Shown piece after piece: positions 1,518 to 5,040 of a stretch of 25,813 nucleotides of DNA. Location of the stretch: IMG/VR virus record IMGVR_UViG_3300021197_001382, positions 1 through 25,813 of that record, one strand, 5' to 3'. How positions within the stretch are numbered: position 1 is the stretch's first letter; each line of letters starts with the position of its first letter. The stretch comes from a virus. The notes beneath the pieces were generated by a model, which ran no database searches, had not been told where the DNA came from, and worked only from the letters and a program-made list of their open reading frames with translations. Both the position numbers and the translations under genes were made by a program.

Positions 1518-1790
1518 CTAGTTTTTAGCTTCTAAATCTTTTCTTATCCACATTAAGTCTGTTTTTATTTCAGCTAAATCTGATCGAATTTCCATTCTAA
1601 ATGTTTCTGCAACATCAAGTCGTGCATCCAAATTAGTTAATTCTGTTTCTATATGAGAAATTCTTAGATCATATGTTGCGTTTGTACTAGCAACAGACCA
1701 TAGCAATCCTCCTATAGTTACAACCCATGTTCCTAATATTCCAACTAAGGTTGCATTATTTTTCAGTACATTTCCTGCAAGATCCGACAT
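1518..1790 (-). CDS. small membrane protein with coiled coil, 90 aa
   Basis: A single membrane segment lies at about residues 13-33 (LVGILGTWVVTIGGLLWSVA). After it, residues about 42-88 form a heptad-like charged helix (ISHIETELTNLDARLDVAET and following), ending WIRKDLEAKN. Single-spanning proteins with this plan in phages include XhlA-like hemolysin/holin-associated proteins and spanin-type components. Without a lysis cassette in view, a lysis role is only a possibility, and a virion membrane tether is equally open. The start at 1790 lies inside the end of the upstream 679-residue gene (35-base overlap), so translation is probably coupled to it. The start is supported because the membrane segment lies directly downstream. 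Confidence 0.75.
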   Translation of the reverse strand: MSDLAGNVLKNNATLVGILGTWVVTIGGLLWSVASTNATYDLRISHIETELTNLDARLDVAETFRMEIRSDLAEIKTDLMWIRKDLEAKN

Positions 1791-3795
1791 TATACTTTTC
1801 CTTTTTTAATAACTCTCTAGGTATTGTCATATATGGGGTATCTTGTATATATTTTAACAACAACTCCCAAGTACCTGTTTCTCCTGCACCATACTCTTCT
1901 TTAACAGGTACTTTATTATCACCACGATTTGATGATTTATTTCTAACCCTTAAATTTGAACTGCTATTATCTGTAGCATTGTGATTTTTATGATCAACAT
2001 CATTACCATCACCGTTAGAAACTCTTCCTTCTTTTTCTAATTTTGCTCGTGCTTGGTTTCTACCTTGTCGTCTTTTAATTTGCTCTGGTCTAGAATGATA
2101 TCTGGTGTATTCTTTTTTATAATCTCGTTCTTTTTCTGTTATAAGACTTAACCCTAATACTAGATCTTCCATACTTTCACCTAGTCTAAGAGCAGATCCA
2201 TCATAGTATTCTACATCTTTTTCTACACCAACATAAAAGGTATTATCACCAACATCAATTCTAGTATAGTCACCATTACCAACAGATCCAACTGCATCTA
2301 AGTTTATATTTCGTACAATAACAGAAGTTGCAGATAAACCAAACAACTTAATAAATCCTTCCAATAAACTTTTTTGTTCTGAAAGGAAATTATCAAAAAA
2401 TACTTTACCATCATTAACGGTTTCAGATAATTCTAAAAATTCACTAAGTTGTGGTATGTTTTGTCTGGAAGAAACTAATAGTTGATACATTTCATCAAAC
2501 GGTGTTCCGTCCGGTGATGATGTAAGTTTAAGTTTTAGGTAAGTCTCACCCAATAGCTGTTTAGTTGAAGTATTAGTAATAGGAACCATTTGAAGGTTTG
2601 TGCCGTCACGAGACGTACTCATAAGTGCGTTTGAAACCGCTGGTAATTTACCACCAAATTTTTCATTTCCTGTCAAAGCTTCGATAACCATTACACTCTC
2701 TAAAACATCACTAGTTTGTAATATTTCTTCTAAGTCAGATATAATGTCTATTTTAAAATCTTCCCCACGGGAATATAGATATTTTTGTTGAATCGAAGTA
2801 TTATTACCAAAAGATATAATGTAGTCAGAAACTTTCTTTTTTAATTTTTCTAATGATTTTTTAATTTTTTCATCAGATGTAAGCTCTTCTAGTTTAGATT
2901 TGAAGCAAAAATCAAAAAGAACTCTTGCTTCATCATCTACAATTATCTTCGTTTTATCTTGGATAATAGAAACACAATAAACTGAACCACTTTCATCTTG
3001 TATTATTAGATCAGTGTTTGATCTATCCTGCCCACCAGTAATTTTTGTCCATGCCTTTGATGTAGCGTAAACTTCATCGGGAGTTGTAACAGAAAATTGA
3101 CCCTTAACAATATCATTTAATTGTTGGTAAGCACGAATAGAAGAATCCATTAATGTCTGACTTTGACCAAAAAATTGTTTTATTGCATTTATATCTACAG
3201 GTTTTCCCCCGGTGCTATTTGCAACGAGAGATATTCCCTGTGCTATTGAATCAGGAGAATGATCCCAATCTGGATATGTTGAAGACGTATCCTGTCTTTG
3301 AACACCGTCCTTGGGATAATCATAGTGATCAGATCTAATAATTTCATCTTTAGATTTTTTCTTTCTCGAAACTATACCAAGTAATCTATTAGAGGTTTTA
3401 GATGCCTCAAAGTCATCCTGTGATGACATTTCCTGTGCAATATTAGGAGTTACTTCTGGTTTTGGTGCTTGTCCTGATACTTGTCCAAAAAGTAATTCAT
3501 GTCTATTTTGTTCAAAATCTGCTTTTGGAATTAATCTAACTTTACCATCTTGATTGGTTCTTACTATAATAACATTTTTCCACGGATTTGTGGAATCTTG
3601 TTGTTTTTCTTGTTTTCTATCTACAGATTTTCTTGCTTTATCTACATCTTTTTGATCACCACCACGAGAACGAGCATTTTGAATTGCTCTTTCTTTTTCT
3701 ACTCTATTCGCACGAGTAAATTCCAAAAGATCATCTTTGAATGTACTGCCCATCCAAAAATCTTCTTCTATCTTATTGATAATATTATTTTCCAT
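1756..3795 (-). CDS. large phage protein with HNH-like C-terminal module, 679 aa
   Basis: This looks mosaic. Residues 25-66 are a charged helical segment and 71-140 a conserved-looking stretch (VRLIPKADFEQNRHELLFG, then TPNIAQEMSSQDDFEASKTS). Residues about 245-400 hold SNTDLIIQDESGSVYCVSI and IEALTGNEKFGG, which resemble a PD-(D/E)XK-like nuclease core seen in marine phage proteins, although the usual catalytic lysine is not obvious. Residues 560-628 carry an HNH-like module: YHSRPEQIKRRQGRNQAR, then DVDH (D601, H602), NSSSNLRV and SSNRG. The tail from about 629 (EEYGAGETGT, YIQDTPYM) resembles a short motif at the C-termini of several marine phage proteins. The start follows TTGAGG spaced 5 bases from ATG, just after a terminator, so this gene heads a transcription unit. 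A DNA-processing or capsid-associated role is possible but unproven. Confidence 0.75.
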   Translation of the reverse strand: MENNIINKIEEDFWMGSTFKDDLLEFTRANRVEKERAIQNARSRGGDQKDVDKARKSVDRKQEKQQDSTNPWKNVIIVRTNQDGKVRLIPKADFEQNRHELLFGQVSGQAPKPEVTPNIAQEMSSQDDFEASKTSNRLLGIVSRKKKSKDEIIRSDHYDYPKDGVQRQDTSSTYPDWDHSPDSIAQGISLVANSTGGKPVDINAIKQFFGQSQTLMDSSIRAYQQLNDIVKGQFSVTTPDEVYATSKAWTKITGGQDRSNTDLIIQDESGSVYCVSIIQDKTKIIVDDEARVLFDFCFKSKLEELTSDEKIKKSLEKLKKKVSDYIISFGNNTSIQQKYLYSRGEDFKIDIISDLEEILQTSDVLESVMVIEALTGNEKFGGKLPAVSNALMSTSRDGTNLQMVPITNTSTKQLLGETYLKLKLTSSPDGTPFDEMYQLLVSSRQNIPQLSEFLELSETVNDGKVFFDNFLSEQKSLLEGFIKLFGLSATSVIVRNINLDAVGSVGNGDYTRIDVGDNTFYVGVEKDVEYYDGSALRLGESMEDLVLGLSLITEKERDYKKEYTRYHSRPEQIKRRQGRNQARAKLEKEGRVSNGDGNDVDHKNHNATDNSSSNLRVRNKSSNRGDNKVPVKEEYGAGETGTWELLLKYIQDTPYMTIPRELLKKEKYNVGSCRKCTEK

Positions 3796-3824
3796 AAAAA
3801 CCTCAAGAGTGTATTAGTATGTAT

Positions 3825-3854
3825 AAAAAAGAAGGAGCACATTGCTGTGCTCCT
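3825..3854 (-). terminator. intrinsic terminator, minus strand
   Basis: AGGAGCAC (3833-3840) and GTGCTCCT (3847-3854) form an 8-bp perfect stem with a 6-base loop. Read on the minus strand the stem is followed directly by TCTTTTTTAT, a classic U-tract. It separates the resolvase/NUMOD-like genes and the structured intergenic region from the 679-residue gene. The plus strand has no T-run after this stem, so the terminator is directional. Confidence 0.85.
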
Positions 3855-3960
3855 CCAGGAGTTCTTCACCGTTTTTCAGGGGGAGTAAAGCTGGATCACC
3901 TCCTACCGTGTGCAAAAAAGAATTATATTGCGGTGAAGAAACTTCACTAGTCAATATATG
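3855..3960 (-). ncRNA. candidate structured RNA carrying a 16S rRNA 3'-end (SD/anti-SD) sequence
   Basis: On the plus strand GCTGGATCACCTCCT (3890-3904) equals the 3' end of many gammaproteobacterial 16S rRNAs, including the anti-Shine-Dalgarno; on the minus strand it is the extended SD AGGAGGTGATCCAGC. It lies in the loop of a long stem, TTCTTCACCG (3862-3871) with CGGTGAAGAA (3931-3940). A competing hairpin pairs GTGAAG (3933-3938) with CTTCAC (3942-3947) and TATATTG (3924-3930) with CAATATA (3952-3958). On the minus strand a TATAAT (3927-3922) and a TTGACT (3954-3949), spaced a long 21 bases, could form a weak promoter, and the terminator at 3825-3854 would end a transcript of roughly 90 nt. 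The strand and the existence of the RNA are inference. The SD itself precedes no good start codon; GTG within it opens only a seven-codon frame. Confidence 0.45.
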
Positions 3961-4393: not shown

Positions 4394-4948
4394 TCATTTC
4401 TCCATTTTTTGTACTATATTAAATAATGTTTTACGCACATAATACGAATCTACTATGTCAGTAACGGGATTACCCAAAGTTTTCATTTTTAGTATATCCA
4501 TTAAATCAATTCGTGTTTCTTTATAAAACGAATCATACATATGAGCTTTTGTTGCATTACCTTTGCCTGTTGCATATTTTTTTATAGTAGAGATATTTAT
4601 ACACTCTAAAGGTATTCCTGCCTCATATAGCTTATATTTAAGAATTCCCGTATTTTCTGCAATATTAAATACTCTACCTGTTGCATTATATGCATAATTT
4701 TCTATACCGACATGACTACAAAATGAACAAGTATCAAATGCCCAAGATGAAATACTATCGTACCTTTGTTCTGGTGTATTGTAGTCATCAAAAGATTTAC
4801 CATGTATCCGTTTGTCAAAAATCCCACAATATTTCTTTTTATCTGAAAGATAATAAAAAATACAATTTTCGTATTTCCATTCTGTACCCATATGACAGCA
4901 TAGTGCTGGGGAGGTTAAACTATAATCTATACCACATAATGAATACAT
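4394..4948 (-). CDS. RuvC-like Holliday junction resolvase, T4-like phage type, 184 aa
   Basis: This is predicted to be an RNase H-fold nuclease of the RuvC type, which would resolve branched DNA during recombination-dependent replication and before packaging. Visible motifs: CGIDYSLTSPALC at the N-terminus (catalytic Asp about residue 7), GIENYAYNATGRVFNIAE (catalytic Glu), the basic stretch KKYATGKGNATKAHM, and DIVDSYYV near the C-terminus (last acidic residue). I place the start at the ATG 4946-4948, which puts the first catalytic motif directly at the N-terminus. A longer frame needs a TTG at 4969 that lies inside a 12-bp hairpin. T4 uses gp49 (endonuclease VII) for this job; many marine T4-like phages appear to carry a RuvC-like protein instead. 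The next gene begins 3 bases after its stop. Confidence 0.8.
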   Translation of the reverse strand: MYSLCGIDYSLTSPALCCHMGTEWKYENCIFYYLSDKKKYCGIFDKRIHGKSFDDYNTPEQRYDSISSWAFDTCSFCSHVGIENYAYNATGRVFNIAENTGILKYKLYEAGIPLECINISTIKKYATGKGNATKAHMYDSFYKETRIDLMDILKMKTLGNPVTDIVDSYYVRKTLFNIVQKMEK

Positions 4949-4955
4949 ACAAATA

Positions 4956-4985
4956 TATAGGTGTCTCAATTAAGAGACACCTATA
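4956..4985. repeat. 12-bp perfect inverted repeat upstream of the resolvase gene
   Basis: TATAGGTGTCTC (4956-4967) and GAGACACCTATA (4974-4985) are perfect reverse complements around a 6-base AT loop. The hairpin lies 8 bases upstream of the resolvase ATG and downstream of the porin/82-residue gene unit. Neither strand has a good U-tract after it, so it may be a processing site, a factor-assisted terminator or an operator. A second, weaker hairpin, GTATACT (5015-5021) with AGTATAC (5034-5040), directly follows the stop of the 82-residue gene. Confidence 0.75.
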
Positions 4986-5040
4986 TTAATAGAGATGATC
5001 CAGCAAATCTACGTGTATACTATGTATTATTACAGTATAC

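Follow-up and report, generated by a model that had tools for sequence, protein, structure and literature searches.

On the basis of comparative sequence analysis, we propose that a T4-like phage encodes a small RNA directed against the ribosome. In this model, element A, a candidate gene for a structured small RNA on the gene strand, would pair with the 3′ tail of 16S rRNA and block initiation by 30S subunits, while element B, a copy of the 16S tail, would titrate A late in infection. We put the probability of this model as a whole at about 0.5. The window, i.e. the whole stretch of 25,813 nucleotides analysed here (IMG/VR record IMGVR_UViG_3300021197_001382), represents part of a T4-like phage genome: the DNA polymerase shares 52% identity with those of marine Synechococcus T4-like phages, and the RuvC is nearest to that of Pelagibacter phage Mosig (45%). 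Element A (minus strand, about 3940-3824) has a helix, P1, around AGGAGGUGAUCCAGC, followed by an intrinsic terminator. The features of A and its neighbours are:

3824-3940, minus strand: candidate small RNA gene A, from the P1 5′ arm to the end of the terminator T tract (synteny in L002, L003, L005, L017 and L084/L090; compensatory pairs; P1 shuffle test)
3931-3940, minus strand: P1 5′ arm, TTCTTCACCG, pairing with 3862-3871 (p = 0.003 against shuffles)
3908-3913, minus strand: GCACAC, kept in most members of groups 1 and 2
3890-3904, minus strand: AGGAGGTGATCCAGC, complementary to the 3′ tail of 16S rRNA over the anti-SD and the adjoining GCTGGATCA (duplex predicted at about -33 kcal/mol)
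3878-3883, minus strand: CCCCCT, 3′ strand of the inner helix P2 (consensus fold)
3862-3871, minus strand: P1 3′ arm, CGGTGAAGAA (P1 shuffle test)
3831-3856, minus strand: intrinsic terminator of A, a stem-loop and then a T tract (terminator scan; compensatory pairs)
3818-3825, minus strand: TATACATA, late-promoter-like box of the next gene (same place in relatives)
1756-3795, minus strand: large protein, HNH domain at the C-terminus, conserved 3′ of A in groups 1 and 2
4394-4969, minus strand: RuvC-like Holliday junction resolvase, between B and A (phrog_159, E 1e-27; the true start is probably the ATG near 4945)

As a preliminary description of this DNA had noted, GCTGGATCACCTCCT at 3890-3904 on the plus strand is the sequence of the 16S rRNA 3′ end including the anti-SD; the minus strand is its exact 15-nt complement. 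Among records annotated as 16S rRNA, those of Acinetobacter match TAAGGAGGTGATCCAGC exactly and those of the Salmonella type match TAAGGAGGTGATCCAACC instead. The suspicion that this is more than a chance 15-mer was borne out: about 1e-5 copies are expected in the window, and together with synteny and structure this led us to reject coincidence of sequence. The intrinsic terminator already proposed on the minus strand is present at 3856-3831, with 11 pairs and a T tail, in a region with four terminator-like sites against 0.4 expected. It is followed by a box, TATAAATA or TATACATA, that corresponds to the T4-type late promoter box and also precedes other genes of the same phage, so that both a terminator and a late promoter box stand between A and the next gene. 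A is a free-standing structured unit ending in a terminator, as expected of a small RNA. No promoter for A was identified, and A could be processed out of the ruvC operon mRNA.

Relatives were retrieved with the following gene (1756-3795) and the preceding RuvC gene. Four further contigs (L002/L004, L003/L023, L005 and L017/L018) carry the motif GG(A/G)GGTGATCCAGC in the same position and orientation, with differing flanks and a terminator after it; with the window these make up group 1. A pattern scan added a second T4-like lineage, group 2 (L084 and L090/L091). The only change within the core is GGAGG to GGGGG in L002/L003, which retains pairing with 16S through G.U. The motif was not found at more distant RuvC loci, and it is absent from those of Cr30 and Mosig, among the nearest isolates. 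Thus, the conservation at the locus for which the preliminary description called holds within the clade that retains the large downstream gene. The product of this gene is 35-59% identical in the four further contigs and about 26-29% in the second lineage, where in L090/L091 it lies downstream of A beyond another ORF. Because a distant relative of the same large gene is also downstream in L090/L091, groups 1 and 2 probably go back to a single locus. As a separate observation, the large HNH protein lies downstream of A wherever it was found, and only its HNH part has relatives in isolate phages.

The flanks of the motif differ in sequence, and yet in every member the arms of P1 pair (located about 17-28 nt 5′ and 11-28 nt 3′ of the motif), as in TTCTTCACCG/CGGTGAAGAA, GTACTGGG/CCCAGTAC, CTGGCTTTA/TAAAGCCAG and CTTATCGTGTTGA/TCAACACGATAAG among others. 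Against dinucleotide shuffles that were allowed the same freedom of choice, P1 in all seven members gave individual p values of 0.001 to 0.031 and a Fisher value of 4.6e-10, which is somewhat optimistic because some members are related. Consensus folding of these few sequences yields P1, the inner helix P2 and the terminator, with six compensatory pairs in group 1 and two in group 2; stem covariation, suggested earlier as a check, is thus seen, though in small counts. By contrast, the proposal that the element mimics the helix 45 region of 16S did not stand. ACCGT (3868-3872) and AGGGGGA (3878-3884) do lie at these positions; however, ACCGT is the P1 stem of one phage and is not conserved, and CCC(C)T, which is conserved on the minus strand, is better read as the 3′ strand of P2. 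The preliminary description had noted neither P1 nor element B (about 5028-4955). In L017 (6065-6190), CCGTAAACG lies 5′ of P1 and could pair with the 3′ arm of the A terminator (CGTTTACGG), a possible anti-terminator.

Element B was found by searching for the complement of the A motif. It has the following parts:

4955-5028, minus strand: element B, a candidate second small RNA gene or leader, from AATACATA, a late-promoter-like box that deviates from TATAMATA, through hairpin 2
4994-5004, minus strand: GCTGGATCATC, matching the 16S tail and complementary to A (once per strand in each of the five group 1 contigs)
4989-5012, minus strand: hairpin 1, with GCUGGAUC in the loop (single-sequence folds, five B elements)
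4955-4986, minus strand: hairpin 2, terminator-like (four compensatory pairs)

The sequence GCTGGATCA(C/T)C lies upstream of ruvC on the same strand in all five related contigs (the window, L004, L023, L005 and L017), and each of these contigs, which are up to 74.7 kb long, holds the motif once as A and once as B. B runs from its box through hairpin 1 and the terminator-like hairpin 2 and ends just before ruvC, about 1.1 kb from A. A late-type box precedes it in four of the five contigs and is diverged in the window. Hairpin 1, with stems such as AUAGAGAU/AUCUCUAU and CGCGG/CCGCG, varies in stem length and lies outside the consensus fold, so that it is read from single-sequence folds. A and B thus have complementary loops encoded at separate sites, as in an antisense or decoy pair. 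The CCUCC part of B is degraded, which weakens its predicted pairing with a strong SD from -13.3 kcal/mol to a range of -7.5 to -9.9 kcal/mol; its predicted local pairing with A, by contrast, remains at -26 to -29 kcal/mol. Because CCUCC is degraded while pairing with A is kept, B would be better explained as a decoy of A than as a sponge for ribosome sites on mRNAs. In L017, B reads CACCCUUUU, and the AGGAGG half of A is not fully matched by B. As A retains an AGGAGG that B does not need, A should have another partner, and the 16S tail is the obvious one. Given that B is very close to ruvC, it may also be a ruvC leader.

In the model that we favour, P1 and P2 would hold AGGAGGUGAUCCAGC, with P2 covering part of AGGAGG and UGAUCCAGC left in the loop. 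There UGAUCCAGC would serve as a toehold for GCUGGAUCA of 16S, the segment that B copies. A would then pair in trans with the 16S 3′ tail, i.e. the anti-SD and GCUGGAUCA. The predicted core duplex between A and the tail amounts to -32 to -36 kcal/mol in groups 1 and 2, and the predicted net gain after unfolding of full-length A is -13 to -21 kcal/mol. By binding free 30S subunits (or precursor 16S), A would block or redirect SD-led initiation. SD-like sites precede 16 of the 23 genes of the window; A should, therefore, also hurt the phage unless it is timed, and some release is needed. In the clade of the window, B made from its late-type promoter would titrate A and free ribosomes for late phage mRNAs. 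We infer that both elements are transcribed, that A binds 16S and affects translation, and that the two are timed in this way. A broader version, in which A and B are an RNA inhibitor and its antidote, with A stopping host initiation and late B releasing the ribosomes, and in which phages evolved RNAs against the 16S tail on several occasions, including in tRNA arrays, we offer only tentatively. Phage anti-sRNAs such as AsxR (reviewed in PMC12197685) resemble B in that one RNA titrates another; B, however, copies the rRNA tail, and its proposed target is a phage RNA.

The same complement is found in unrelated phages. Pseudomonas phages vB_PpuM-Amme-3, KoPa-4, NoPa, Kassivere, Roomu-2, XD2 and Y1-MI and contig L212 carry a non-coding 16S complement of up to 17 nt (UAAGGAGGUGAUCCAGC), with a G.U variant in Y1-MI and five compensatory pairs in the group; the element lies inside tRNA arrays, upstream of tRNA-Asn. 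The structure of this Pseudomonas group differs, and a P1-type test fails there. In phages of the PAK_P3/KPP10 type, about 39 records (some of them duplicate RefSeq entries) have the complement before tRNA genes; in PAK_P3 the element is at 85970, with a putative promoter ahead of it. Among Noxifer-like jumbo phages, Noxifer and contig L228 have the complement in a covarying RNA with six compensatory pairs. In isolate phages otherwise, the exact 16-17 nt matches were confirmed or possible 16S contamination, one hypothetical gene and one site in a Streptococcus phage, directly before an annotated gene. A separate B-like partner was recognised in none of the other lineages, although second matches occur in KPP10 and Y1-MI. 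These comparisons suggest that RNAs with the 16S complement recur independently across phages; their structures differ between lineages and so do not show common descent. In the deposited record of Y1-MI (Pseudomonas phage vB_PF_Y1-MI, OR500437.1), the tRNA genes are on the strand opposite to the ARAGORN calls.

Two small RNAs of the lytic phage PAK_P3, sRNA1 and sRNA2, are late and abundant, and sRNA2 was proposed to act on ribosomes via a tRNA-like stretch (PMC4933390). The 16S-complement element shares their tRNA region and lies between them, but was not reported as an sRNA (PMC4933390); no complement of the motif was seen in sRNA1 or sRNA2 themselves (L207:1879-1961 and 2875-3008). The band C and D RNAs of T4 are stable phage RNAs of unknown function (PMC4933390); T4-type records turned up no match to the 16S complement.

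A shares its pairing partner, the anti-SD, with any Shine-Dalgarno site. An alternative reading takes it for an extended ribosome binding site, serving a leader ORF that is short or unusual, or for a trap that catches ribosomes in the next gene's leader. An element from our scan of bacterial genomes lends this some weight: a Roseovarius element weakly matched Rfam family RF01867 (CC2171), which has matches in 61 of 289 alphaproteobacterial genomes. Like A, CC2171 has GAAAGGAGGUGAUCCAG and then hairpins and a terminator, and its near-identical motif serves a leader ORF: ATG or GTG is exactly 7 nt after GGAGG in 26 of the 26 members listed (L298-L322), all with an ORF of 18-26 codons, often MSHCH... 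Although classed as an sRNA, CC2171 thus appears to be a leader-peptide element with an extended SD. Unlike A, its motif has no enclosing P1 helix, and the window has no match to the RF01867 covariance model at the gathering score or up to E = 1. Among 4227 Rfam families, including the HNH-associated HEARO, the window likewise has no match, and the other loci have only tRNA-type matches elsewhere. In the phage elements the codon at 7 nt is GCA or GCT, and no ATG, GTG or TTG occurs within 12 nt of the motif in groups 1-4, where the start of an SD site would be about 5-12 nt downstream; a start codon first appears 29-90 nt from the motif in groups 1-2, and no closer than 17 nt in groups 3-4. The flanks vary in length and frame, A is cut off from the next gene by the terminator and the late promoter box, and the pairing of 14-17 nt extends past the anti-SD into GCUGGAUCA, whose first bases belong to 16S helix 45. 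The ATG at 3842-3840 on the minus strand that had been placed in the terminator stem is indeed there. With CC2171 as positive control, we share the earlier judgement against a mere ribosome site and regard this reading as improbable.

The remaining alternatives keep A as an RNA or turn to the other strand. The preliminary description had left two models, a minus-strand small RNA pairing with 16S and a plus-strand RNA with an anti-SD at 3890-3904. The former is supported by synteny, compensatory changes, a terminator on the gene strand, the absence of a start codon and the recurrence in unrelated phages. The latter, or a stretch of DNA that copies the host 16S end in the manner of an attachment site, would account for the plus strand being the 16S 3′ end sequence; however, the gene strand holds the terminators of groups 1 and 2, an attachment site would have no need of covarying stems, and no integrase is found among the proteins of the window, which makes it very improbable that the plus strand matters. 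An RNA gene with the sequence of the 16S tail does exist, on the gene strand: it is B. If A and B formed an antisense pair internal to the phage, with B as ruvC mRNA leader or sponge and A regulating it, the ribosome would not be a partner at all. Their complementary loops and their positions, B just upstream of ruvC and A just downstream of the ruvC cluster, would fit. However, other lineages have A-type RNAs and no B, conservation covers the AGGAGG half of A but not the corresponding half of B, and what the two have in common is precisely the 16S tail sequence. We consider such a pair unlikely, though ahead of the other alternatives. Ranking after it, and also unlikely, is a serious alternative in which A protects or masks the 16S tail, e.g. 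against rRNA-cutting defence nucleases, or acts in 16S maturation. Phage tRNAs are known to counter anticodon nucleases, and the position of the element directly before tRNA-Asn in the tRNA arrays of Pseudomonas phages would fit this reading; however, neither a nuclease of this kind nor a site that it cuts is known in this case, and groups 1, 2 and 4 are outside tRNA arrays. Finally, A could be a real RNA with an unrelated protein or RNA partner and a coincidental 16S match. As a match of 14-17 nt is retained in at least four unrelated RNA contexts, we rate this below even the ribosome-site reading.

Takeover of translation by phages is known mainly via proteins. In a search confined to the open-access literature, which may have missed earlier reports, we found no description of a phage RNA pairing with the 16S tail. 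A natural RNA against the 16S anti-SD, with a phage copy of the tail as decoy, would, if true, be a new way of controlling the ribosome. The idea is directly testable because the complement is present in isolated Pseudomonas phages that have laboratory hosts (PAK_P3/KPP10 type, vB_PpuM-Amme-3 type and Noxifer), and it may help to account for small RNAs without a known function among phage tRNA genes.

The motif searches also returned loci of other kinds. Matches to WAGGAGGTGATCCAGCW in viral contigs are mostly inside long ORFs. Two Bryobacteraceae genomes (L288 and L291, minus strand) share ACACTGAGAAAGGAGGTGATCCAGCA followed by a conserved 14-aa ORF (MISGSSTQREVAGG / MTSDSRKPREVADS) and were set aside as ribosome sites, as was L150, with a start codon 9 nt away and a 12-aa ORF. 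Further motif loci are L250 (ATG at 13 nt, unproven), L122 (unproven) and L239. The Roseovarius element (L290:4767-4855, minus strand; L290/L297) is CC2171-like, lacks a start codon (AAAGGAGGTGATCCAGCATCTCG) and is close to the Pseudomonas phage version; it is possibly an sRNA derivative.
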